From Methanobacteriota archaeon (GTDB taxonomy: Archaea > Thermoplasmatota > Poseidoniia > Poseidoniales > Thalassarchaeaceae), in assembly GCA_002722595.1 (NCBI GenBank), contig PBMO01000017.1, forward strand, positions 1-45,613: a stretch of DNA of 45,613 nt. Direction: 5' to 3'. Below the pieces are notes generated by a model, which saw only the letters and a program-made list of their open reading frames with translations, had not been told where the DNA came from and did not search any database. The first letter of the stretch is position 1; every line of letters starts with the position of its first letter. The position numbers were made by a program, and so were the translations under genes. This document shows, in pieces, positions 2,063 through 39,860 of this stretch.

Positions 2063-4462
2063 GTGGATATGCGCCTTACGAGTTCGACCTTGTTTGTCGT
2101 CAGTTTGTTGTTATTATCTACAATTCCATTTAGTTCAGCATCCCAAGGCCGTTCTACTGTTTGTAGTTCAACAGATCTATCATCAATTCCTGATCCAATT
2201 ATCATTAATGATCAGAGTTGTGAACAAATTGCTCTAGGTATACTACAACCTGGCACCATCGTAGAATTCGAGGTAACTGGCGATGTCAATTTTGATTTCT
2301 TAGTATTCCGTAATGCTGCACTCCAGGTATATGCAAATGATCAATCCTATCGGTCACCGACTTATTGGGCTGAAGACACAGTATTCGAGGACATGGTTGG
2401 CTCTGCTCGCTGGCATTGGACAGTTCCTACCGATGAAAGTGAAAAGAATTGGTGGGTTGTTCTTGATAATCTCGCACATCCAAGTGATGATGGAGAAGGT
2501 GCTCAAGGTGGCACATCAGTTCAGATTAATCTAGATATTTCCTTCCCCACTCCAAATTATTGGAATCTGTATGATGGATTAGTTCAATTGCCGGTGAACG
2601 ATCACAGCAAGCTTATCGATGAAAATTCACTAATTCTCGATGAAGGGACTCAAGTTGAGATTAGCGCCATACCTATGGATGGGAATCCAGATTTGTTTAT
2701 TTTGACAGAAAGTCAGCGGGCGGGGTATCTTGATGGTTCTGCACCAGAATTCCGAGTTAATGGTGCGGATTTGCTGGACATCACTACAGAGGGTAGTGTA
2801 ACTTGGACGGTTGATTCAGAACATGCAAATCAACCTCTGTACATTTATGCGGATAATGAACAAGGACCAACAGGTGGAGGAGATGGCCAAAGCAATGCTA
2901 AATTCACAGTCATCATCAATTTGCTACCAGTTCTTAATGCAACAATTTCTTCCGACTCTCCATCTTATACAATTGGCGATTTTATCGATGTTGGTGAAAC
3001 AATTACCCTTTCTGCTAATTCGACCCCCAACCTTTCCAGCCAGATAGATACAACTCAGTTTCAATGGGATCTTGATGGAGATGGTCAATTTGAATTCACA
3101 GGTTCTTGGGCAGAAGTTGATTGGCCAACAGAGGGTTCTAACACCATCCATTTGAGAGTCAATGGTGTCGATGGTCGCACCGATACATCTTCAATCACAA
3201 TTGATGTTGATGATGTAACAGATCCGGTTGCGATAATCAATGGTGGCAGCACTATTGTGCGAGGTTTTGGAGAATCGTTTACCCTCACTAGTTCATCTAC
3301 TGACAACTTCGGAATAGACCGCGAAGAATGGTGGGCAGATGGGATTCTTGTCCAGAACAACAGTGGAACAGGCAATACTTTCACTTACAGTTTTGAATCA
3401 GATGGAAATCATTCAGTAGAACTGAAGTCGTTTGACCTAGCAAATCGTCATTCTACGGTCACAGCATCAATACTAATTCAAGATCGAACGGCTCCAATTC
3501 TTGATGATATATCAGGCCCTATTGAGGTCAAACAAGGGGAAGAAAATTCTTGGAGACTAAATGCCACTGACGATGAATCTCCAACACTGTATTGGGTCTG
3601 GGATTTTGATCTCGAAACAGATTCGGACGGTGATGGTGATTCGACCAATGATATTCAAGCAGCAGGTGATCTTGTTTCATGGACATTCAACAAGGGAGGA
3701 GACTATTCGATAACATGTACAGTTACCAATGAACAGGGTATTTCTTCATCTCGTGAAGTAAATGTTTACGTTGAATCTGAGCCTAAATCGTCTAGTTCAT
3801 CTATGGAAATGATTTACACAATTGGTGGTGTTTTGGGAGCCCTAGTTATTGTCGCTGGAATTGTTGGAGCCATCCTATCAGTGAGAAGGCGCCGCGCTCA
3901 TCAAAGTATGATGCGGATAGAAGCCGAAAGAGCGGCATTAGAAGAAGCAGAGGCGGCTAGAGAACCCACCCACGAAGAGCAGCTTTCAATGTACCAAAGT
4001 CGTAACGAAAATACCGGTTTTCAACGGGCAGGAAGTGGAGATGAAATGGCAGAAATTGCAGGTGTGGGTTCGTCCTATGGCGGCCAAAGACCCGCTACAA
4101 GCGCACCTGTACAGAATGTATCTGATGATGCACTATTAGCAGCATTTGTTGAAGAGGACGAACCACAACCTGAAGAGATATCCAAACCAGAACCAACTCC
4201 TACAAGCAAACCTGTGGAATCATCAGGCCCTCAAGGAAGTGTCATCGCCAGTGGGATTCAGTTACCTGATGTTATCACACGAACAAGTTCACCTAGTGAA
4301 ACCAAACCAGAACCAGTTGCTCAGATTCAACCCCAAACCACTGAGGTAACTGGGGTCTGCAAATCCTGTGGACAACAATATGCAGTGGATATGCCAGTTG
4401 GAGTGAATCAAGCAAGGGTAGATTGCCCTAAATGTGGGGAACCGGGCATAATTAGCCGTTAA
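2063..4462 (+). CDS. Exported PKD/Ig-domain protein with one C-terminal TM helix and a cytoplasmic zinc ribbon
   Basis: Signal-like N-terminus (start GTG 2063 or ATG 2069); PKD-like QFQWDLDGDGQFEFTG; TM IGGVLGALVIVAGIVGAIL; CKSCGQQYAV...DCPKCGEPG at the C-terminus. Confidence 0.8.
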   Translation: MDMRLTSSTLFVVSLLLLSTIPFSSASQGRSTVCSSTDLSSIPDPIIINDQSCEQIALGILQPGTIVEFEVTGDVNFDFLVFRNAALQVYANDQSYRSPTYWAEDTVFEDMVGSARWHWTVPTDESEKNWWVVLDNLAHPSDDGEGAQGGTSVQINLDISFPTPNYWNLYDGLVQLPVNDHSKLIDENSLILDEGTQVEISAIPMDGNPDLFILTESQRAGYLDGSAPEFRVNGADLLDITTEGSVTWTVDSEHANQPLYIYADNEQGPTGGGDGQSNAKFTVIINLLPVLNATISSDSPSYTIGDFIDVGETITLSANSTPNLSSQIDTTQFQWDLDGDGQFEFTGSWAEVDWPTEGSNTIHLRVNGVDGRTDTSSITIDVDDVTDPVAIINGGSTIVRGFGESFTLTSSSTDNFGIDREEWWADGILVQNNSGTGNTFTYSFESDGNHSVELKSFDLANRHSTVTASILIQDRTAPILDDISGPIEVKQGEENSWRLNATDDESPTLYWVWDFDLETDSDGDGDSTNDIQAAGDLVSWTFNKGGDYSITCTVTNEQGISSSREVNVYVESEPKSSSSSMEMIYTIGGVLGALVIVAGIVGAILSVRRRRAHQSMMRIEAERAALEEAEAAREPTHEEQLSMYQSRNENTGFQRAGSGDEMAEIAGVGSSYGGQRPATSAPVQNVSDDALLAAFVEEDEPQPEEISKPEPTPTSKPVESSGPQGSVIASGIQLPDVITRTSSPSETKPEPVAQIQPQTTEVTGVCKSCGQQYAVDMPVGVNQARVDCPKCGEPGIISR

Positions 4463-9707: not shown

Positions 9708-9730
9708 GGTTCCCCACACATTGGGGAGCC
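9708..9730 (+). promoter_or_regulatory. Hairpin GGTTCCCC-ACACATT-GGGGAGCC occluding the SD region of the protease gene
   Basis: 8-bp stem (one G.U) ending 2 nt before ATG 9733; the 3' arm contains the purine-rich GGGGAG. Confidence 0.55.
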
Positions 9731-9732
9731 TT

Positions 9733-12700
9733 ATGCAGTATCGACTAGCAGCCTGCATTCTGGCTATTCTCCTGCTATCTAGCGCGTCTCCTTTGGCTCA
9801 ACAAAACCACGTCGTGCAACAATATGATGAAGATGAATCGGTTGGCATTGAAAGAATAATCATCACTCCAGATCCAGATAGTATAGGTTCAGCACATCCC
9901 TCCGCGAGTTGGGACGGCGATGAACGAGTTCGTGAAACAGTGGCCGATACTCATCTTGGCCGCTTTGATGTAAACGGTTTGCAGTCAGACATTCAAGTTC
10001 CGGAAATATTGGCAGATATCCGTCCAGATTTGGCCTTAGTTCTGATTGATGGAGAAGTTGGTCTTTGGTCAGCTAGGTTGGCAATTAGTGAATTGCCAGG
10101 GATTGAAATTCGTGCACATATACCACCCTCTGGATTCCTAATTCAGGGCCATCCTCAAATGATTTCGGCAGTGCTGGATTTACCTCAAGTTGAAGCATTA
10201 CACAATCTTCCTTTAGCATTCGTTGTCGATCACAAATTGCAAAACCTAGTGGCAGACACTGCTCAATTGTCCCTTACATCCGAACCCTCCACCGCTGTAG
10301 AATTGTCAGGTTGGCGCTTAGCAGATTTAGGCACACCACAAGATCATGTTCGATTGTTAGGTTTATCCGGTGATTTGGATACTCTAGCTGAAGAGTACCT
10401 CGAGAGCCACAAACCCATTGATTCAGGCCGTCATCTAGGCATCATTGGTTTAGGTGAAATCGCAACAGTTGCCGCTAACCCAGCCTTATCTTGGTTAAGT
10501 CTAGAACCGATTCTCAGTATTGATAATAACAAAGCAGTTGAGCATATGCGAGCTGACGATGTATCCAACTATTTTGTTATTGGATTGAATGGAAGTGGTC
10601 ATTCAATCACGGTCGCAGATTCTGGTATTGATCGAGATCATGGCGATTTTAATGGCCGCATTGATCACGTTGAATCAGTAATATGGGGTGATAGCTCAAC
10701 TGAGGACATGCATTCAGGCCATGGTACACACGTTCTTTGCACTGTACTGGGCGATGCTAGTAGAGGTGGATATGCAGGCGTTGCTCCACAAGCAACTTTG
10801 CGATTTCAAGCGATGGAAGACGATAGTTCTGGAGAGTTTGGAGGCGTCAGTATGGACACATTAGTCCGTAAAGCGTACGAAGGGAATTCATACATTCACA
10901 CAAATTCTTGGGGAGCAGGTTCATCCTTTGGAGAATACACAACCAGTAGTGAGGATGCCGATAGTCGGACGAGCCGCTATGATCAATTCTGGTCGTACAA
11001 TGGTATGCTGGTACTTGTTTCAGCAGGTAATGATGGTCCCAATTCAGATACAATCACTCCACCAGCTACAGCAAAGAATGTAGTCGCAGTTGGTAATCAC
11101 CATAACCGCGGCGGCGGTGCTCCAGATTTATTGTCGGATAGCAGTAGCAGGGGGCCAACCGACGACGGTCGAATCAAACCAGATGTCACCGCACCAGGTT
11201 CTTGGGTCCGTTCATGTAAAAGTCAAGACGCTTCAGATACTGGTGGTTCTACATGGGATAATCAATGGTACATTGAGTATAGTGGGACATCTATGGCTGC
11301 ACCGAATGCAGCCGGAGCGTCTTTGTTAATCCGCGAATATCTGATGGAGGTTGCAGGTCGCCCATCACCTCAAGGCGCACTAATCAAGGGTATGCTGATT
11401 CTAGGTGCTGAAGATGAAGGAACTAGAGATATACCGAATATGAATGAAGGATGGGGCAGAGTCAATCTGGCAAACTCACTGATTCCGGGTACAGATACAG
11501 GGGTTTGGGTTGATGATAGAAACACCGTCCGTAGTGGTCAAACTCGTGAATATGAGTTCAATCTAAGCCGTGGTAACACTCCATTCAAGGCAGTATTAAC
11601 TTGGTCTGATTACCCAGGAAGCACATTTTCCAATATTCAATTACAAAATGATCTAGATATGGTAGTGATTTCCCCAGATGGTACCACCTACAAAGGGAAC
11701 GATTTCTCTAATGGACGTTCAACTACTGGTGGTGACGCTGATGATATCAACAACGTAGAAGTCGTGCTAATTGACCAAGCAGCGGCTGGTGTTTGGACAG
11801 TCCGAATCACAGACGTCGCCCATGGTGGGCAACGTAGTGATCAACCATTCGCATTGGCAGTTCGCGGAGCAGGTGTCAATGATTTACGTAGTGACCCTGT
11901 GCCTATCGCATCCTCCTTCCAATTATCAACAGCCATTCCACAGGTGAATGAAGAGTGTCAATTTTCAATCCAAATCGAAAATCAGGGCGGGGGATCTGCG
12001 GATGGATTACTGATTGAAGCCATTGCAGGGACCCAGAATCTCGGCACAGTAGAGTTGGATTTAGGCCCAGGCATGATTCGCTGGGCTACGTGGGATTGGA
12101 CTCCTGTAAATGAAGGTCAACAGGCAATAACTATCCGGATAGACCCGAGTAATTCAGAAGAAGAAATCGATGAAGATAACAATCTCTTTGAGACACCAAT
12201 TGCAGTTAGTGCACCTGGGGTGAGAGTAACAACAAATCAAACAATATTGGATGTACAAAGCCCCAGCCAAACCAGTACTTCATGGGACTTACAAATACGT
12301 AATACCGCTTTGCTTTCGACAAATGCATCTATTAGCGCGTCCACACCTATGCGAATAAATAATGGACAAATGATGACTGGTTGGTTCACCTCCTTCACAC
12401 AGAACAATTTCCAACTTTCAGGTTCACAACAATCTGATTTAGGCTTCACCTTAGTTCATGACAAGTCACCCGCACCTGGAATATATCAACTCACAATCAC
12501 TGCAACAGATGATGACAACAACATCCAATTCCCTTTGACATTGACACTTGATGTGCCAGTACTATCTGATGTAGAATTTCAGGCTGCATTCTCAACACTA
12601 TACGTGCACCCTGCTGAACCGACCACATTCAATATTGATGTATTGAACAAAGGAAACGGGATTCAGGGATACAATCTCTTCGTTGAATCTCCGTCAGGGT

Positions 12701-14238
12701 GGTCAGTTGGTTTGGATAGTCTAGGTTCCAACATAGGCGCATCGTCGGGTTCAACGGGAGCAATCCCCCTCGGCGGCGCACGAACTGTAGATATGACAGT
12801 TACACCACAGTTAGGAGTACCTCCTGCGCCAGGCCAGACTTTACAGGCGAACTTCCGGGTAATATCTCAGGTTGATCCTACATTGCAATGGTTGTACCCA
12901 GTCATTATGGAAGTAACAGAATATGATTATGCAACAATCGATGTTGAATCTTTGCCTAGTCAAGCGAGACCAGATTCGACAGTTTATTTCCAATACACAA
13001 TTGTCAATAGAGGTAACACTGAACTAACTTTCATTCCAAATATTGACAACCGCCCAGGAGGATGGTCAGTTGTCGCAGGTGAAGCACCACTTACTGTGCC
13101 AGTTGGTGGATCAGCAAATTATCTCCTAAGCCTTCAAGGCAATGGCTACGCAGTTGGCGGCCCAATCACTTTGCACCTCACAACTGCAGATGGATACAGA
13201 ATTTCTTGGGATGGTGACATTGAAGTTGTTGAACAACCAGAACCAGTATTGACATTTGTTGGTTTCATAGATGAAAATGATCTAGAAGTTGCTGCAATCT
13301 ATCCTGGATTACCTGGAATCAAAGGTAAATGGTTGATTTTCAATGACGGTGCAGCTGCTTGGACACCTACAATAGAATTGATCCTTCCTGACAGTGATTG
13401 GACAGGCATTTGTGATGCGATTGGCCAAGTTGAACCATCAACTTCTTCAGAATTAACATGTATAATTACAGCACCCGATTTGACTCCAGCCGGATGGCAA
13501 CCCGAAATCCAACTGAAGATAGTTGCAGAAGGTGTTGAACGCACCTCTGGTTCGACTCTGACAATTGCACCAGATGCAGAGATTAGTTGGTCAACGGTTT
13601 CTATCGATGAAATCATCGAAGGGCAAACATCTACATTGTATTTGGAAGCTGTTAATCATGGAAATACAGCAATTCAAGAGAGAATTATCGTGGATGTACC
13701 AAAGGGTTGGAATGCAGATATAGAAGGCTCAGATTTATTGAGTTTAAGCATTGGTGAAACTCAAAGAGTGCGAATACTTGTTACACCAGATGATTCTGGA
13801 AAAGAAACAGTCGAAGTATCGCTAGAAGGCTCATCGATTGAAGGTGCATCCTATGATATATCGTTAGATGTGGAAGAAGACCCGACACGATCAACAGGAA
13901 GCAAATTAGGCACAAATATAGCAATTATTGGATTGTTGGTTTTCATCACATTAGGTCTTGTCATTTCAGCGGTAATGATAATGCGTCTTAGGGAACAAAA
14001 TACTCCGCAATCAAATCTTAATGCACCTCCAACTAATGCCTTCGCTGAATCCCAAAGCACCTCACAACAAGTAGTATGTTGGGGTTGCAATACTCCCATC
14101 TTGGGCTCGCGAAGAGGTTGTCCAGGATGTGGTGCAAGATACCATGATTCAACACAACCATGCCAAGCCTCGAACATCACTAAATGCAGAAATTGTCAGG
14201 CAGACGTTAGTACTTTCATCGAGGAGGCAGCATCCTGA
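9733..14238 (+). CDS. Subtilisin-like (S8) serine protease with CARDB-like repeats, TM helix and C-terminal zinc ribbons
   Basis: Catalytic motifs VADSGID, GHGTHV, GTSMAAP; P-domain-like AGVWTVRITDVAHGG; TM IAIIGLLVFITLGLVISAVMIM; CWGCNTPILGSRRGCPGCGARYH...CRNCQ. Confidence 0.92.
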   Translation: MQYRLAACILAILLLSSASPLAQQNHVVQQYDEDESVGIERIIITPDPDSIGSAHPSASWDGDERVRETVADTHLGRFDVNGLQSDIQVPEILADIRPDLALVLIDGEVGLWSARLAISELPGIEIRAHIPPSGFLIQGHPQMISAVLDLPQVEALHNLPLAFVVDHKLQNLVADTAQLSLTSEPSTAVELSGWRLADLGTPQDHVRLLGLSGDLDTLAEEYLESHKPIDSGRHLGIIGLGEIATVAANPALSWLSLEPILSIDNNKAVEHMRADDVSNYFVIGLNGSGHSITVADSGIDRDHGDFNGRIDHVESVIWGDSSTEDMHSGHGTHVLCTVLGDASRGGYAGVAPQATLRFQAMEDDSSGEFGGVSMDTLVRKAYEGNSYIHTNSWGAGSSFGEYTTSSEDADSRTSRYDQFWSYNGMLVLVSAGNDGPNSDTITPPATAKNVVAVGNHHNRGGGAPDLLSDSSSRGPTDDGRIKPDVTAPGSWVRSCKSQDASDTGGSTWDNQWYIEYSGTSMAAPNAAGASLLIREYLMEVAGRPSPQGALIKGMLILGAEDEGTRDIPNMNEGWGRVNLANSLIPGTDTGVWVDDRNTVRSGQTREYEFNLSRGNTPFKAVLTWSDYPGSTFSNIQLQNDLDMVVISPDGTTYKGNDFSNGRSTTGGDADDINNVEVVLIDQAAAGVWTVRITDVAHGGQRSDQPFALAVRGAGVNDLRSDPVPIASSFQLSTAIPQVNEECQFSIQIENQGGGSADGLLIEAIAGTQNLGTVELDLGPGMIRWATWDWTPVNEGQQAITIRIDPSNSEEEIDEDNNLFETPIAVSAPGVRVTTNQTILDVQSPSQTSTSWDLQIRNTALLSTNASISASTPMRINNGQMMTGWFTSFTQNNFQLSGSQQSDLGFTLVHDKSPAPGIYQLTITATDDDNNIQFPLTLTLDVPVLSDVEFQAAFSTLYVHPAEPTTFNIDVLNKGNGIQGYNLFVESPSGWSVGLDSLGSNIGASSGSTGAIPLGGARTVDMTVTPQLGVPPAPGQTLQANFRVISQVDPTLQWLYPVIMEVTEYDYATIDVESLPSQARPDSTVYFQYTIVNRGNTELTFIPNIDNRPGGWSVVAGEAPLTVPVGGSANYLLSLQGNGYAVGGPITLHLTTADGYRISWDGDIEVVEQPEPVLTFVGFIDENDLEVAAIYPGLPGIKGKWLIFNDGAAAWTPTIELILPDSDWTGICDAIGQVEPSTSSELTCIITAPDLTPAGWQPEIQLKIVAEGVERTSGSTLTIAPDAEISWSTVSIDEIIEGQTSTLYLEAVNHGNTAIQERIIVDVPKGWNADIEGSDLLSLSIGETQRVRILVTPDDSGKETVEVSLEGSSIEGASYDISLDVEEDPTRSTGSKLGTNIAIIGLLVFITLGLVISAVMIMRLREQNTPQSNLNAPPTNAFAESQSTSQQVVCWGCNTPILGSRRGCPGCGARYHDSTQPCQASNITKCRNCQADVSTFIEEAAS

Positions 14239-31496: not shown

Positions 31497-33358
31497 GACG
31501 CCGATTGTCTTCGATTGATTAGATGGGTGACAATAAATCCAGCAAGTAGTATCAAAATGGCACTTGGAACAAATCCACTAACAGAACCAACAACATCTGG
31601 ATCCGCTGCACCAATGAGTAGGAAAGCCTCATTGTTTCCCTCATCTCTTTCAGAGATAGAGTTGTCAGGGTCAACAATGATTCGGAGATCGAATTCTCCG
31701 GCAGTTAGTAGTGAGATGTTCAATGAGATTTCCTCACTTTGATCAATCAAATTCCCATTTGAAATCACAATTGAATCCAATGTTGTCCATTCAGTTGTAG
31801 AATCACGACTTGCAGGTGCACTCTGGATTCCAATAACTACACTTCCATCATAAATCTCATTTGAATTGATTGTAGCCTGTAGAAGAACAGGGTCTTGTGA
31901 ACCAGCACGTACAATCAAGCGATCAAGTGATGCATCTGTAACGGAGAAATCTAGGCCAGGTAAAATTAGGAAATGTTGTGCTGGGATCGTGACAGAATTC
32001 CCTGCCTCGTCAACCAAAGTAGCTCGAAGAGAGAGGTATTGGCCCGCCGTAGTTGACCAATCAATAGCCGATGTCAAACTGTTTGACGTGCCCGACCCCA
32101 CACTCAACCAATCAGAGGATATGTCTGGTATTGATCCTGCACCATTTGCATCAAACCCATATTCCAGTCTGCATTCAGAAACATCGATTCCAGAATTGGC
32201 ATCAGTTGCATCAACACTTATTGACACCTGTCCAAACAATGAATCGGTTAAATCAGGCAACAACCAACCACCCGCTGTTGGTGCGGTCCTATCTATCAGC
32301 ATAGTTACATTATGGGGTGTACCAACATTTCCAACTCTATCTACTGCCCTAAACTGAATTGTTCGATTGCCTTCATCAAGTGGCATGGTTCCGAAACCTG
32401 CGGAACTAATATCGGACCAAGTATTCTCACTATCGCGTACCTGATATGAATCAATTCCAGAACCCCCACTATCTGATGCGCTACTGGATAGATCGCTGAA
32501 GATAAGTGTAGTCGCATCATTCCAAACATTTGGGGTTACAGACAAAGATGGTTGGCCAACAGTTGGCCCAGTTCTATCGATGCCGAGGTGTATTGAGGTC
32601 TGTGCTGAATTTCCTGCTTCGTCAAAAACAGTCAGTAGAGGTGTCCAAGTCCCTTCTGAAAGGTCCCCTGGTGACCATGACCATGATCCAGTAATTGTAC
32701 CAGGGCCATCAGTAGGTGGTGTACCAGAACCGGGTATATTTGTCAAAGTCGCGTAGGATAGATGCTCATCACTTGCACTCCAAGAAAAGTCGAGAGTTCC
32801 CGATTCTGGTGAAGTAAACCAAGCACGATTTATTGTGGATGAACCATCACCAATAATCGAATTCGAAACCGATAGCGAAAGAGAACTAGGTGCGGTGTTA
32901 TCAAGTGTGAAAGTAGGGCTAGTTATCCAACCTGTATCACTTCCATTGTCCAAAGTACCTCTTGCTCGTAGGGTATAATCACCATCTGAGTGTGAACTGG
33001 TATCCCATCCAGACAACCATGGTGCAGATGTTACATTCGCAATTGGTGTGGTTTGTGTATTAACATCAATTAGTTCGATGTTTATGTAATCTAGGTTTTC
33101 AACACTAGTGAGTCGTATAGTGTAAGTCCCTGAGATTACTTGCTCAGAATCAGGTCCTCCACTAAATGAAAAGTCACTAGATTTACCAGACGAAGCCTCG
33201 ACATTTATCCAAGATCCATGTGGTGTGACACACAAGATAATTGCTACTAGGGTAGCAAGGATTAACCGACGAGAAATCACTGGCACTGAATATCCACAAG
33301 ATGCCCCGCCCTTCAAGGCTTTCCAATGGGATTGATTCAATTGTGCTTGCTTTGGCAT
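31493..33358 (-). CDS. Exported Ig-like repeat protein with CARDB-like domain and C-terminal TM
   Basis: Signal LILATLVAIILCVTPHGSWINVEA; repeated DEAGNS...DRTGPT and DRVGNVGTPHNVTMLIDRTAPTAGG units; TM VPSAILILLAGFIVTHLINRR. Confidence 0.8.
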   Translation of the reverse strand: MPKQAQLNQSHWKALKGGASCGYSVPVISRRLILATLVAIILCVTPHGSWINVEASSGKSSDFSFSGGPDSEQVISGTYTIRLTSVENLDYINIELIDVNTQTTPIANVTSAPWLSGWDTSSHSDGDYTLRARGTLDNGSDTGWITSPTFTLDNTAPSSLSLSVSNSIIGDGSSTINRAWFTSPESGTLDFSWSASDEHLSYATLTNIPGSGTPPTDGPGTITGSWSWSPGDLSEGTWTPLLTVFDEAGNSAQTSIHLGIDRTGPTVGQPSLSVTPNVWNDATTLIFSDLSSSASDSGGSGIDSYQVRDSENTWSDISSAGFGTMPLDEGNRTIQFRAVDRVGNVGTPHNVTMLIDRTAPTAGGWLLPDLTDSLFGQVSISVDATDANSGIDVSECRLEYGFDANGAGSIPDISSDWLSVGSGTSNSLTSAIDWSTTAGQYLSLRATLVDEAGNSVTIPAQHFLILPGLDFSVTDASLDRLIVRAGSQDPVLLQATINSNEIYDGSVVIGIQSAPASRDSTTEWTTLDSIVISNGNLIDQSEEISLNISLLTAGEFDLRIIVDPDNSISERDEGNNEAFLLIGAADPDVVGSVSGFVPSAILILLAGFIVTHLINRRQSAS

Positions 33359-33412
33359 CTTGAGACCTTTCGGAAAGCAGGTTTGAAGTGCCTTGCCTGT
33401 TCTCCCAAACCC

Positions 33413-36115
33413 ATGGAGAGGCTTCGATTCACAAATGTGCTGTGCGCTTTCCTTTTCCTTGCACCAATTTTTGCAGTAGCAATGCCCGTAAATGCAGAGC
33501 TTGCTGGCAACGTTGCATTCAGTACAGAAGGCCTCTCAATGAGTCCATCAACAGCAGTAGAGGGCGGTGATGTAACATTCACTCTGTCGTTACAGAACGT
33601 GGCAAATGTTGTTGCAGAAGATGTTGTGGTTGAGTTCCACAAAAATAGTTATCAGTCAGGAAATCCATCATCACAATACAATGTTGACATCCCTGCAAGT
33701 GATTTTACGGACATTGATTTTGACTGGATTAATCTGGCTTGGGGAAACGCAGAACAAACTCTTGTGATTAGGGTAACACATAATGGAGAATCAAAGATAA
33801 TTTCGCATGATTTTGATATCCAAGGCCTACCCAATCTTCGTTTTTCACATTTTGAAATTGACCCGTCGACTGGTGCTCATGAAGGCGATCAGATAGAAAT
33901 ACAGATTGGAATCGAAAACGCTGGGCATGCTGAGGCACCATCCAGTCATCTCGAACTCACCTTTGCTGGAACCGCCACAATGCTCTCTGTACCCTCCCTA
34001 CAAGTTGGTGAGACTGCATGGGTGAATCAAACAGCCAGTGCACCTTCAGCAGGTAATTATGATGTAACAGGAGTTGTCAATGCAAATATCAGTGATGACA
34101 TACTTGAGTCCACATCTGCTGATAATTCCGCTTTGCGTGTACTTGATGTTGAATCATTGCCGGATTATTGGCATGCGGACGGTCCGCATGTCACAGCAAA
34201 TCCTGGTTTAGCAGGCCCTTGGACCATTACTGGGACAATTGCCCGTGATTCTGGTTCAGGAAGTACAACAGCTCCTCTTGAAGTTAGGATAAAAGATGGA
34301 ATTACTCTAGAAATAGTATCATTGTCATTTACAGAAGTTGACACATTTGCAGAATACTCTGTTTCAATAACTTCATCCCAACTAACAGACACATCCCCTG
34401 GTGATGTTGAGCTTGAAATGGAAATAGATTCATCTGAAAATCTTGAACAATCCAATCCGTTCAACAATCTTCAAACAACCTCTTTGACGATTTATCAAGA
34501 ACCAAATGTTGTTGTTCGGGGCGTGTCTGTTGACCCGGATGAGACAACCCCTGGAAATATGGTCACTTTCACGGTTTCATTGCAGAACGTTGGAATGGTT
34601 ACAGCTATCGGAGAGTTAACTGCAACATTCGATGGCCAATTCTTAGAAACTAAATCTCTTTCACTTCCACCTTCGAATACAGCAAATCAGGGCCAAATAA
34701 GTGCGACATTTACTTCGATTGTGGAGGGAGAAACTAGGGATATACCCTTCACAGTTACTTGGTCAAAAAATGAGGCGTCTTATGATCGATTAGAAACGGA
34801 TAACATTGGCTTTGCCAATGTCAGTTTGATTTCTGATTTACGACTCCGTTTCCTACAAAATACGGAAGGCTGGTTACCGGCCGGTCCACCACTTTATGCT
34901 GGGAACGAGTATGCCTATGTCATAGATGTAGAGGCCACAAGTGGAGCTGGTAGCGAGATTTTTGATTGTATAGACCGCTCTACAGGTGATGTGTTGGATA
35001 GCACCAACACCCTGTCCTTTTCAGCAAATGAACCGGAAAACAAGAAACAAACAGTGCGTTGTGAGATAAATGCAGAACTCCCTGGTGAAATTGAATTAGC
35101 AATTACACCCAGAGGGACCTCAGTAAGTCCACATGCCAAAGCATGGACAATAGAATTAGAAAATGGTAAAGATGCCTCAGATGATTCAGAATCCTCGTCA
35201 ATAGCCTTGTTTTTAATTGCAGGAATCATTGCATTAGTTACTCTTGTAGGCGCGATTTACTTGACAAGAAGGGGACTTGCAGATGCAGACCGAGAAACAT
35301 ATGAATTATGCCCTGCATGTGATGGAGAGATTGAAGGAAATGAAGACATATGTCCCTATTGTGACTTTGACTTACGAGTAGGAAGATCAAAGTTCCATGA
35401 TTGTGAGGAATGCAAATCTACAATTCCTTCAATGCTTGAGCATTGTCCATATTGTGGTACTGAGCAAGATTTGTCAATACATTATTCACGCCGAAAGCGC
35501 AAGTATCAGGCTTTGCCAGAAACTGTTGAGGAAGAAGTAGTAGAGGAAGAGGATGAAGACATGATTGTTCGTGGCCATGAATCATTTGACTCACATACGG
35601 GTGAAATGGGCTTCACAGAGGAACAATGGGAAGGTGAATGGGACGATAATTTGTCAGAGGCAGAAGCCTACTTCGATGCACAAGAAGAAGAAAGAATCGC
35701 TGCCGAAAATGTTGCCGAAACAGAAGCAGACACCGATGGCGATGAAGTAGTTAGTACGGAATTAAGTGAAGCAATGGAGGATGCACCAGAGCACGACCTT
35801 GATGCCTTCTTGGGTGATGTTGAGTCGAGAAAGCATCTTTCTGATGAAGAAGTTGAACTCACGGCTTCTGATGCAGATTTTAGAGAACAAATCTTTGAGA
35901 TTACTGGGGAGGACGGTGTGTTGCCAGGGCAACAGGTCAACGTCGAAGCCATGGTCGACAATACAGTAGTCGGAAATGAAGTGCGATCTGCAAATTCTGA
36001 TTTCACCATTGGTGAAGAATCTACACCACCCGAAAAACCAACACCTGAAGAAGGAAAAGATGAGACCTCGAGTCCTAAACGGCGAAGTGTTAGACGTAGA
36101 AAGAAGGATGAATAG
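33413..36115 (+). CDS. Exported CARDB-like protein with TM helix, paired cytoplasmic zinc ribbons and long acidic tail
   Basis: ORF track 33326..36115, likely ATG 33413 (MERLRFTNVLCAFLFLAPIFAVAMPVNA); TM IALFLIAGIIALVTLVGAIYLT; CPACDGEIEGNEDICPYC and CEECKSTIPSMLEHCPYC. Confidence 0.82.
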   Translation: MERLRFTNVLCAFLFLAPIFAVAMPVNAELAGNVAFSTEGLSMSPSTAVEGGDVTFTLSLQNVANVVAEDVVVEFHKNSYQSGNPSSQYNVDIPASDFTDIDFDWINLAWGNAEQTLVIRVTHNGESKIISHDFDIQGLPNLRFSHFEIDPSTGAHEGDQIEIQIGIENAGHAEAPSSHLELTFAGTATMLSVPSLQVGETAWVNQTASAPSAGNYDVTGVVNANISDDILESTSADNSALRVLDVESLPDYWHADGPHVTANPGLAGPWTITGTIARDSGSGSTTAPLEVRIKDGITLEIVSLSFTEVDTFAEYSVSITSSQLTDTSPGDVELEMEIDSSENLEQSNPFNNLQTTSLTIYQEPNVVVRGVSVDPDETTPGNMVTFTVSLQNVGMVTAIGELTATFDGQFLETKSLSLPPSNTANQGQISATFTSIVEGETRDIPFTVTWSKNEASYDRLETDNIGFANVSLISDLRLRFLQNTEGWLPAGPPLYAGNEYAYVIDVEATSGAGSEIFDCIDRSTGDVLDSTNTLSFSANEPENKKQTVRCEINAELPGEIELAITPRGTSVSPHAKAWTIELENGKDASDDSESSSIALFLIAGIIALVTLVGAIYLTRRGLADADRETYELCPACDGEIEGNEDICPYCDFDLRVGRSKFHDCEECKSTIPSMLEHCPYCGTEQDLSIHYSRRKRKYQALPETVEEEVVEEEDEDMIVRGHESFDSHTGEMGFTEEQWEGEWDDNLSEAEAYFDAQEEERIAAENVAETEADTDGDEVVSTELSEAMEDAPEHDLDAFLGDVESRKHLSDEEVELTASDADFREQIFEITGEDGVLPGQQVNVEAMVDNTVVGNEVRSANSDFTIGEESTPPEKPTPEEGKDETSSPKRRSVRRRKKDE

Positions 36116-36147: not shown

Positions 36148-36798
36148 GTGTTCAACGGAGGGTTGGGTCATACATTGTCTAGTCCAAGGCATCGAGTTCT
36201 AAGCATAGCCCTAGTGGTCATGTTTCTTACCTTGGCTATGCCCGGCTGTCTATCACTTGTTGTTGGTCGAGAGATGATGGAAGGTGCAAGAGGTAAACCA
36301 GAGGTTCTCAATGTTGCTGAACAATTTGATCTTTCACATACCTTCGTAGTAGATGGAACAGATTTCGTACCTGAACAGGTGCAAAAAACAGTGTCGCAAG
36401 ACCTTCCTATTGATTACACAGTTCAGAAAATAGTTATCAATTTTCAAACCACTATGAATCATGATTGGGTACTTGGTGAGCAAGATGAAAGATATGTGCA
36501 TGTCATATTGTTAGTCTGCGATGAAACCGGTAACAATTGTGAATCAACTCCGATTTATGAGCGCAGAGCAGAGAACGGTTCGTATCCTGCAGAAAGATAT
36601 GAGATTGATCTAAATTCTGATATTTACCAAAGAGGCCAATGGAATCTCACTGTAGAAGGTCGTGGAGTTGGTACAGATACTGGAATCAGTCTCATTGATT
36701 TCAAAGATTCCTGGTCACTCATTGTAACGATAATTCGACCTTGTCTTTCTTTCCCTGAGAGCCCAGAAGTGTGCACACCAACGATAGAGTTTGATTAA
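36148..36798 (+). CDS. Putative lipoprotein of unknown function
   Basis: Hydrophobic VLSIALVVMFLTLAMPGC lipobox-like N-terminus; start codon uncertain (GTG 36148 or downstream TTG). Confidence 0.6.
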   Translation: MFNGGLGHTLSSPRHRVLSIALVVMFLTLAMPGCLSLVVGREMMEGARGKPEVLNVAEQFDLSHTFVVDGTDFVPEQVQKTVSQDLPIDYTVQKIVINFQTTMNHDWVLGEQDERYVHVILLVCDETGNNCESTPIYERRAENGSYPAERYEIDLNSDIYQRGQWNLTVEGRGVGTDTGISLIDFKDSWSLIVTIIRPCLSFPESPEVCTPTIEFD

Positions 36799-38016
36799 TC
36801 AGACCAAGCTCTGGGGACAACTCTTTCGTCGGGAACAGTTTCGACATTTTCCAACTCGTTGATGATTTCTTGTTGCTCCTCCTTCCACCATTAATCGTTG
36901 AACCTCTTTCACAGATTTCACTAAATCTGTTTCCGCTTCGTTGTTCCAAGCAATAGTATACAGCGAATTTTCAGCATATTGTAATATGCCGTAATCAGGT
37001 TTTATGCTCGTGGTTTTCTCTACCAAGTACAAGTATGCAAGTAATTGCATCCTATGGCTCTCATGGGGATTATTTGGCACCTTCCCAGTTTTCTGTTCAA
37101 CTGGAATGAATTGGTTGTCAATTTTTACTATTTGATCAGGCCTGCCTCTGATACCAGTTTCTTGGTCGATTAAAAGCGAGGCTTGTTGCCCGGAATCATC
37201 ACTATATGCTAGGACTCCATTTTTGCTTAATCCTGTTTTCTCACGTGCCTTTTCAGCGTCTTTTTCACGAGTCAGCACTCTGTGCAGTTGCCACGCTGAT
37301 ATGAGTAACCAAGCGAGTGTAATTACAATTAGTGAGAATGTTATGACAGTTCGATTCTCTGCCCAATAAATTGCCAAACCATGTAATGCAACAGCAATTG
37401 AACCTATTAGGAGCCAAACTTCTATGGCGCCACCCTTTCCAACCCCTTCATCTTCTTTGATTAGTGGCTTTTCATATTCATCGATTCCTAAACCACTCCC
37501 AGAAAACTTTGGAGGTTGAGCTAAACCAAAAGGTCGGCCCAGCCATTTTCTCCATGGCAAAGTAATCAGCGTTATTGCTAAGAATAACCAAACAACTGCA
37601 AGTATCACTAGATATTTTCCGATATCTTGTATGAAATCTTCTGAAATAGCTCCTTCTTTCACGAAAAAGAATGCTGCAGAATCAGCAGAAAGAGCACACA
37701 CCACAGTGAACCACCAACTCCAAATTACCAATTCCTTTGATGCTTGTTTCTCCGTTTTTTTGTAATCCAACATCCTTTGATGTATTTCATTGTGGACCCT
37801 AGCACCTCTTTCGATTGCCAAACCTTCTCCACTCACACCTGCTTTCGATAATTGCCACGATACTGGGCAATAGGTATGACGCTCTAGGTCAGAAGCGGAG
37901 ACAGGTAAAGCGATCCCTTCTGAATCAATCCAGAATCCATCATCACGCATTGTACCATCGCTGATGGATCGAGTTAGATTTAGGGCAGATTCAACCGAGG
38001 TATCCTCAAGGCCCAT
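36799..38016 (-). CDS. Cas4/RecB-like PD-(D/E)XK nuclease with inserted transmembrane region
   Basis: Likely start MGLEDTS at 38016 (ORF track to 38109). HTYCPVSWQLSKA, RGARVHNEIH, GRPDQIVKIDNQFIPVEQKTGKVP, QLLAYLYLVE, and CRNCSRRKSCP match the Cas4 Fe-S and nuclease motifs; hydrophobic segments sit between. Confidence 0.85.
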   Translation of the reverse strand: MGLEDTSVESALNLTRSISDGTMRDDGFWIDSEGIALPVSASDLERHTYCPVSWQLSKAGVSGEGLAIERGARVHNEIHQRMLDYKKTEKQASKELVIWSWWFTVVCALSADSAAFFFVKEGAISEDFIQDIGKYLVILAVVWLFLAITLITLPWRKWLGRPFGLAQPPKFSGSGLGIDEYEKPLIKEDEGVGKGGAIEVWLLIGSIAVALHGLAIYWAENRTVITFSLIVITLAWLLISAWQLHRVLTREKDAEKAREKTGLSKNGVLAYSDDSGQQASLLIDQETGIRGRPDQIVKIDNQFIPVEQKTGKVPNNPHESHRMQLLAYLYLVEKTTSIKPDYGILQYAENSLYTIAWNNEAETDLVKSVKEVQRLMVEGGATRNHQRVGKCRNCSRRKSCPQSLV

Positions 38017-38184
38017 AGTAGACAAGTGTATGATGCCCAAGTTAAGGGTTGTTGAAGTTAGCCTCGACCATCCCCAGCAACACTTGAAGGCAGAACAAAA
38101 GCGCATCACTGCGTTTGAAATTGCCTTTTTACGAAGCGAAGCGGTTATGAACGGGAGGTGGGTGGCGATGCCGCACGAGGACTG

Positions 38185-38793
38185 ATGATGAGCGAATCAC
38201 TCTTGATTTCAATAGAGGCCTACGAGTCGCATAACGTTCACGTCGGTGCACATCAGAAGAGTGCAGACATGAAACCATTCCTCAGTACTGAGGGTGACAG
38301 TTCAGGTCTACACTACATTGATTTAGATAAGACAGATTCTAGAATGCGTGTTGTTGCAGAGTTCCTGAATCGCTATGATCCAAGTCGAATATTAGTAGTC
38401 AGTGCACGACAGTATGGCCAGAGACCAGCACGCAAATTCGCACAATCTATTGGTGCCATGCACATCGTTGGAAGATTCATTCCTGGCACTCTCACCAACC
38501 CACGTCTAAGGACTTACATCGAACCTGAAATTATTTTCGTAACCGATCCCCAAGCGGATCAGCAATCACTTTCAGAAGCTGTTAGCAGTGGATTACCTGT
38601 TGTTGCAATATGTGATGCCAACAATACCCTTCGAAATGTCGATTTATGCCTTCCTGCAAACAACAAGGGTCGAATGAGTCTATCACTGGTTTATTGGCTA
38701 CTCGCTCGCGAGGTCTTGAAGGCCCGCGGCACTATGGATGACGACACCTGGGAAACAATGCAGGACGTCACCGAATGGGAATCCACGTTCTGA
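38185..38793 (+). CDS. rps2: 30S ribosomal protein S2 (uS2)
   Basis: DPSRILVVSARQYGQRPARKFAQSIGAMHIVGRFIPGTLTNP, PEIIFVTDPQADQQSLSEAVSSGLPVVAICDANN; start ATG 38185 or 38188. Confidence 0.96.
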   Translation: MMSESLLISIEAYESHNVHVGAHQKSADMKPFLSTEGDSSGLHYIDLDKTDSRMRVVAEFLNRYDPSRILVVSARQYGQRPARKFAQSIGAMHIVGRFIPGTLTNPRLRTYIEPEIIFVTDPQADQQSLSEAVSSGLPVVAICDANNTLRNVDLCLPANNKGRMSLSLVYWLLAREVLKARGTMDDDTWETMQDVTEWESTF

Positions 38794-38813
38794 GAAATCT
38801 CAGTGGTGGAAAT

Positions 38814-39860
38814 ATGAGTGAACAGGTTCCTCTGTTTCTAGCACCGATGGCTGGAGTTACGGACGTTGCCTACAGACTTCTTGCCCGTGAATCCGGGGCA
38901 GATTTCACCTCCACTGAATTCACTGCTGCGAGTGGATTGAGTCGAAAGGACGCCAAATCTTGGGCCAAGGTCGAAACTCACCCAAGAGAATCACCTTTCA
39001 TCCCCCAAATCTTCGGTGGGATTGAGGATGAAATGGTCGAGACTGCTCAACTCCTCTCCAAGGATGCCGATGTGATAGACCTAAATTTTGGGTGCCCCGC
39101 ACCCAAGGTCACCAAAACCTGTGCAGGCGCCGCAATGATGGGTGAGCCAGAAAATCTCGTCCGAATGGTCGAGCGTTGTCTTGAGAACAGTGAGGTTCCT
39201 GTGTCTGTCAAAATGCGGCTTGGTATCAATCAAGAGACTTTGACAGTTCTAGAGATTGCTGAGCGTTGTGCTGAACTCGGTGTGTTGCGCGTTTGCGTCC
39301 ATGGCCGCACACTTTCCCAGAAGTATCGCGGCATCGCAGATTGGGACATGATTGCTAAAGTTGTCGAAGTTTGTGAACCGCACAATACACCTGTCATTGC
39401 TAATGGAGATATTGTTGATGCTGATAGTGCTGCAAAGTGTCTCGAGGTGACCGGTGCTCAAGGATTGATGATTGGGCGTGGGGCTATCGGTGACCCTTGC
39501 ATTTTTGGCCGGATCAAAAGTGAGCTTGGCTGGGAGGATTTCGAAGCCCCATGGGGGGATTCTAACCAAGCGGGTCAGAAGCATTGGGCTTGGAACCGTT
39601 ACGTCGAATTGGTCGACGAAATCGGTGGCCCTTATGCGGCTCGAAACATGAAGCAACATGCGATTTCTTTCACCAAAGGGCTACCTGGTGGCCGCGAATT
39701 ACGCCCTCACCTACACGCTATCAAGGATTTTCGTTTGATTGGTGAACCTCTCAACATAGCCTTAGAGGCCTTCTCTCAGCGGCGCCACAACACACTGATG
39801 GTTCAGGAAGCGATTGAGGCCGCAGCCACGGCCTCAGAAGCTGGGGGCTGGCGTCGATGA
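38814..39860 (+). CDS. dus: tRNA-dihydrouridine synthase
   Basis: LAPMAGVTDVAYRLLARESGADFTSTEF, DLNFGCPAPKVTKTCAGAAMM, VCVHGRTLSQKYRGIADWD; ATG 38814. Confidence 0.95.
   Translation: MSEQVPLFLAPMAGVTDVAYRLLARESGADFTSTEFTAASGLSRKDAKSWAKVETHPRESPFIPQIFGGIEDEMVETAQLLSKDADVIDLNFGCPAPKVTKTCAGAAMMGEPENLVRMVERCLENSEVPVSVKMRLGINQETLTVLEIAERCAELGVLRVCVHGRTLSQKYRGIADWDMIAKVVEVCEPHNTPVIANGDIVDADSAAKCLEVTGAQGLMIGRGAIGDPCIFGRIKSELGWEDFEAPWGDSNQAGQKHWAWNRYVELVDEIGGPYAARNMKQHAISFTKGLPGGRELRPHLHAIKDFRLIGEPLNIALEAFSQRRHNTLMVQEAIEAAATASEAGGWRR

Follow-up and report, generated by a model that had tools for sequence, protein, structure and literature searches.

Locus and nuclease motifs

The window, meaning the whole stretch of 45,613 nucleotides analysed, derives from a 1.64-Mb, 76%-complete MAG of the order Poseidoniales (Marine Group II). 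The gene under study, here called TM-Cas4, is located at 36799..38016 on the reverse strand and encodes 405 aa from an ATG at 38016 to a stop at 36799-36801. This start is backed by orthologs of the same genus, which align from residues 1-7 onward; in the numbering of motifs and TM helices used below, residue 1 is placed at 37959. The convergent neighbour (36148..36798, forward strand) encodes a putative lipoprotein of 216 aa belonging to no Pfam family; its stop abuts that of TM-Cas4 and the linkage is conserved. The divergent neighbour is the gene for ribosomal protein uS2 (rps2; 38158..38793, forward strand), which adjoins the lipoprotein gene where TM-Cas4 is missing and is followed by dus (38775-39860). 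In Poseidoniales the neighbours of TM-Cas4 are stable housekeeping genes (rps2 and dus), and its nuclease part evolves at the rate of an ordinary enzyme, with a median identity of 60% against 54% for Dus and 65% for rps2.

The motifs of the protein follow the order Cys31, His56, TM1-TM4, Asp275, Glu288, Lys290, Gln305, Tyr309, Cys372, Cys375 and Cys381, all encoded on the reverse strand. The first cysteine of the Fe-S site, within a YCP motif, corresponds to 37867..37869 and the histidine of the GxxxH motif to 37792..37794. The PD-(D/E)XK nuclease core comprises 36802..37227 and contains the Asp (37135-37137), Glu (37096-37098) and Lys (37090-37092), the QLLAY segment from 37047, and cysteines 2, 3 and 4 of the Fe-S site in a CxxC-x5-C arrangement (36817..36846). 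The pattern of one N-terminal and three C-terminal cysteines is that of Cas4, the Fe-S cluster itself being predicted. Conservation was assessed on 50 Poseidoniales orthologs with a mean pairwise identity of 50%, and all ten motif residues, the catalytic ones and the four cysteines, are identical in 50/50. The alignment of the whole phylum keeps D-ExK, the upstream His and QxxxY, with Asp in place of Glu in a few members.

Pfam, NCBIfam and PADLOC all identify the core as Cas4. Its Pfam matches are Cas_Cas4 (6.8e-13) and PDDEXK_1 (5.7e-11); TIGR00372 (cas4) scores 69.6 bits, above the curated cut-off of 65, and PF01930 scores 49.5, above 22.7. The best PDB matches of the structural model in Foldseek are Cas4, Dna2, MGME1 and ACE1. 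By its motifs, profile scores and predicted fold, the window protein is thus a Cas4-type Fe-S nuclease. An earlier note had read the same elements from the DNA, and each of them (N-terminal Cys, His, D-ExK and C-terminal Cys) was located in the ORF with profiles above cut-off; the loss of catalytic residues among orthologs, which it had named as a refutation, is not seen in any of the 50.

A membrane insertion within the nuclease domain

The domain of Cas4 is typically compact, soluble and uninterrupted. In TM-Cas4 an insertion of about 150 residues separates the Cys and His motifs from the D-ExK core, and for this reason the protein is classed as a variant within the Cas4 nuclease family. The insertion contains four segments predicted as TM helices, all with strongly favourable Wimley-White octanol energies (in kcal/mol). 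TM helix 1 (37660..37716, residues 82-100, -6.9 kcal/mol) extends the helix of the His motif, which spans residues 47-101 in the model, and forms hairpin 1 with TM helix 2 (37558..37614, residues 116-134, -15.2 kcal/mol); the loop between them is short, acidic and predicted to lie outside. The cytoplasmic loop predicted between the hairpins (37426..37548) is the fastest-evolving part of the protein, with a median identity of 26% and low model confidence. TM helix 3 (37363..37419, residues 181-199, -9.8 kcal/mol) is followed by TM helix 4 (37291..37347, residues 205-223, -13.9 kcal/mol), which runs on toward the core as a helix of residues 203-242. All these features are on the reverse strand. 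The octanol scale gives exactly four helices in 44/50 Poseidoniales orthologs and five in 6/50. The fifth segment is taken as the core helix that bears QxxxY, since this helix gives an extra match in several non-Poseidoniales proteins.

In the AlphaFold model of the window protein (pLDDT 78.5, pTM 0.59), helices 47-101, 107-133, 178-199 and 203-242 lie apart from the nuclease fold, the loop 141-174 being unreliable. A Thermoplasmatota homolog of another family gave a better model with the same layout (pLDDT 85.8, pTM 0.76). The loops contain 16.4 K+R per 100 aa inside and 10.3 outside, and 13.2 D+E inside and 17.8 outside, which agrees with the positive-inside rule if both nuclease parts lie, as predicted, in the cytoplasm. 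The membrane-integral architecture is therefore well supported by predicted structure and hydropathy. About four TM helices separating the core from the His motif had been proposed at the outset, together with the caution that the hydrophobic segments might be buried in a soluble core; four octanol-favourable segments were identified there, and the model assigns them to long helices outside the core. In genus g20 alone, the loop that links TM1 to TM2, predicted to be outside, is longer by about 95 Asp/Glu-rich residues (L058:8737-10173:+ and L060:8780-10216:+).

Variation in helix number and the split form

Outside Poseidoniales the position of the insertion is constant and the number of helices is 2, 4 or 8, always even. 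In the first set of loci, two helices were identified in 5, four in most and eight in 2, and a second set added more two- and eight-helix members. Hairpin 1, hairpin 2 and the lone hairpin of the two-helix forms are homologous repeats by hhalign comparison (97-98%, E 1e-11 to 3e-14); these scores are inflated by hydrophobic bias, with a shared pattern and its W-L-x-A-A-x-x-L-Y-like ending still visible. The eight-helix form occupies two places in a quick tree where support is weak, so that a single origin is possible. This even variation represents a clear case of a catalytic domain that tolerates the duplication of membrane hairpins. One eight-helix TM-Cas4 (L109:6980-8884:+) is fused to a C-terminal TRAM domain (1.3e-10), and the TM region of L100:7442-8428:+ passes the cut-off for DUF2101, a predicted membrane protein family (7e-6).

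Three families (f6, f16 and f27; loci L126-L141) contain the protein as two overlapping or abutting ORFs, in 16/16 loci examined. The first ORF encodes Cys1, the G..H motif and, just before the stop, a single TM helix; the second opens with a TM helix, followed by D-ExK and three Cys. These last two elements are intact in 16/16 loci and the His in 15/16; the poorest TM calls belong to the GC-rich family f6. The split coincides precisely with the outer tip of the hairpin, which gives independent support for the predicted topology.

The frame of the second ORF relative to the first is -1, 0 or +1 and differs between genomes, and a start codon (ATG, GTG, TTG or CTG) is located at most 4 nt from the first stop in 13/16 loci, often as an NTGA overlap. 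A frameshift in the MAGs, or a single programmed frameshift, was rejected as a general cause on these two grounds. In L126, L127 and L129, all of family f16, the second half has no ATG, GTG or TTG near the junction; only an ATA overlaps the stop (ATAG or ATAA), after a conserved GGGGTG that resembles an archaeal Shine-Dalgarno sequence. The split form would represent a natural two-part nuclease whose assembly is membrane-dependent.

Distribution and independence from CRISPR

TM-Cas4 was identified in 87/146 Poseidoniales genomes. It is present in 70/72 genomes of family f2 and, within family f1, in 17/17 genomes of genera g1, g6, g8 and g11 and in 0/57 genomes of the remaining seven genera. 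The absence in the latter is a clean empty site and not an assembly gap: the lipoprotein gene, rps2 and dus are consecutive in 15/15 sites inspected. Beyond Poseidoniales, 166 more Thermoplasmatota genomes from 39 families contain a match. The same architecture is thus shared by hundreds of genomes, which argues that it is not due to chance. The survey of genomes for this architecture and its neighbours had been proposed in the earlier note, and the spread across the phylum, the variation in helix number and the split form go beyond what was claimed there.

The gene is single-copy, vertically inherited and not mobile. The profile scan of viral contigs and the phage records yielded no relative, and plasmid matches cover the nuclease part only, being annotated as Cas4 or PD-(D/E)XK proteins. 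Viral carriage of TM-Cas4 was rejected, as the insertion was present in no relative from viruses, phages or plasmids. The single profile scan of genome contigs returned close relatives only.

Cas1 was found neither in the genome of the window protein nor in any of 146 Poseidoniales genomes, which upholds, at the level of the order, the remark that no CRISPR locus lies near the gene; it is present in 79/380 Thermoplasmatota genomes. Outside Poseidoniales, 37/62 genomes at least 90% complete with the fused type of TM-Cas4 are without Cas1. Linkage to cas1/cas2, the mark of CRISPR-associated Cas4, is not found in TM-Cas4, whose neighbours are rps2, dus and the lipoprotein gene. TM-Cas4 does not depend on CRISPR.

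The CRISPR-associated Cas4s (8d3l/8d3q, 7mi5 and SSO0001 4ic1) are the top structural matches of the nuclease part. TM-Cas4 differs from them in lacking a Cas1 partner in the order and any CRISPR linkage, and in containing the TM insertion. None of 15 CRISPR-linked Cas4s of the same phylum has such an insertion; they gave two weak octanol hits and, after the N-terminus, no Kyte-Doolittle hit. In a quick tree they branch apart from TM-Cas4 (SH-aLRT 98); long branches meet between the groups, so that root and separation are only indicative.

TM-Cas4 lies outside CRISPR loci, on a distinct branch, with vertical inheritance, which are the marks of solo-Cas4. It shares with solo-Cas4 (TIGR00372, PF01930 and PF12705) the nuclease motifs and the four cysteines, and differs in that the domain is interrupted by 2-8 TM helices or divided between two membrane proteins. 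Solo-Cas4 is common in archaea and mainly vertically inherited, with a role open since its description (Hudaiberdiev et al. 2017, PMC5704561). The main text of that study contains no membrane form, the word 'membrane' appearing once, within the name of a gene, and Thermoplasmata are not named in it. A search of open-access full texts yielded no description of a Cas4 that is membrane-bound or split. Within the open-access literature, TM-Cas4 is a previously undescribed form of solo-Cas4. A solo-Cas4 fixed in the membrane limits where the enzyme can act and makes the question of the solo-Cas4 role testable.

Lineage-specific gene neighbours

The search for functional partners by neighbourhood identified only lineage-specific links. 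A TPD/CDIN1-like gene (PF14811, 3.7e-45), possibly another nuclease, is located directly upstream on the same strand in four families (L096, L100, L101 and L112). TPD was identified in 142/146 Poseidoniales genomes and in 1/14 control genomes, and the search for its co-loss with TM-Cas4 was negative given this near-complete presence. A gene for a THEP1-type NTPase (PF03266) lies directly downstream, on the same strand, in L104 and L105, of a sister family within the same class.

Possible function

By sequence and model, the chain of TM-Cas4 exits the nuclease domain beyond the His motif, spans the membrane in an even number of passes arranged as one or more homologous hairpins, and re-enters to finish the D-ExK core and the cluster of four Cys, with both halves of the active site on one side, predicted to be the cytoplasm. 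The helical stalks would hold the active site near the inner face of the membrane, where the enzyme may trim or degrade DNA ends as a Cas4/Dna2-like single-strand nuclease. Its most likely purpose would be an innate barrier to the entry of DNA, for example viral genomes, across the envelope, and the anchor would also keep the nuclease off the chromosome. That TM-Cas4 is an integral-membrane solo-Cas4 acting as a barrier to DNA entering at the membrane is proposed tentatively, as a plausible reading somewhat short of probable. It is the first choice because the predicted design is anchored and faces the cytoplasm, because TM-Cas4 is independent of CRISPR, and because a precedent exists in SNIPE, a bacterial membrane-bound anti-phage nuclease that acts on incoming DNA at injection (PMC13190303). 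SNIPE combines a cytoplasmic nuclease domain with a membrane anchor, as TM-Cas4 is predicted to do, and the idea of cutting during injection would apply to both. SNIPE is formed by GIY-YIG and DUF4041 with one N-terminal TM helix, whereas TM-Cas4 has a PD-(D/E)XK fold, an Fe-S site and internal hairpins, and neither GIY-YIG nor DUF4041 was identified in it by Pfam scan. Against the barrier stand the locus itself, which adjoins rps2 and dus and has no defence-island context, the ordinary evolutionary rate, the lack of mobility and the seven Poseidoniales genera without TM-Cas4.

If the barrier reading is true, TM-Cas4 would be an archaeal, Fe-S-dependent counterpart to SNIPE built on an unrelated nuclease. 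This is relevant to ocean archaea that have known viruses, the magroviruses (PMC10160649), yet no detectable Cas1. A more extended proposal is a phylum-wide class of membrane-integral Cas4s with the hairpin in 1, 2 or 4 copies, in which, in three lineages, two translationally coupled one-helix proteins would rebuild the Fe-S cluster and active site on meeting in the membrane and so guard the envelope; taken as a whole it is possible and rather doubtful.

The close second choice is a housekeeping nuclease of repair or replication that trims the cell's own DNA ends or flaps at membrane-attached sites of replication or segregation, like Dna2, AddB and MGME1. It is considered on account of the quiet, vertically inherited context: a single-copy gene, phylum-wide, with a stable place by rps2 and dus and an ordinary rate. 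The TPD/CDIN1-like gene upstream in four families points in the same direction, as do the Foldseek neighbours Dna2 and MGME1. However, seven Poseidoniales genera have lost the gene cleanly and are viable without it, and TPD shows no co-loss. Dna2, AddB, MGME1 and ACE1 belong to the same nuclease superfamily, Dna2, MGME1 and ACE1 being among the Foldseek matches, whereas TM-Cas4 has the membrane insertion and no helicase or Argonaute association was seen; by Pfam scan it lacks the fused helicase domain that characterizes Dna2 and AddB, and no linked helicase was noticed. This role is regarded as somewhat unlikely.

The membrane part could instead be a sensor or assembly switch, the nuclease remaining inactive until a ligand or stress arranges the hairpins or the split halves. 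Such a role would agree with the split lineages, where Cys1 and His are parted from D-ExK and the three Cys so that activity would need assembly in the membrane, with a hairpin number that varies while the nuclease is conserved, and with the extra acidic outer-loop segment of one genus. No known sensor domain was identified, however, and the repeats may be mere anchors, which leaves the switch improbable.

Slightly less probable still is DNA uptake or nutrition, with TM-Cas4 processing DNA imported through a membrane channel, an idea also raised in the earlier note. A membrane location and a predicted cytoplasmic active site would suit the degradation of an incoming strand, and the TM region gave a very weak match to DUF4131, the ComEC N-terminus (E 0.052, below cut-off). 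ComEC (PF03772) itself was identified in 0/146 Poseidoniales genomes compared with 10/14 control genomes, so that the known route is unsupported and ComEC-based uptake in Poseidoniales was rejected. Finally, an ordinary soluble Cas4, with hydrophobic segments that belong to its core or to an assembly artefact, is hardly credible, having nothing found in its favour and being contradicted by the models, the hydropathy, the even helix number, the 39 further families and the lack of such segments in CRISPR-linked Cas4s of the same phylum.

The window also contains large secreted-looking proteins of a repeated design (33326-36115, 2063-4462 and 9721-14238; CARDB, S8-protease-like). They end in a TM helix and a Cys-rich, zinc-ribbon-like tail that would face the cytoplasm.
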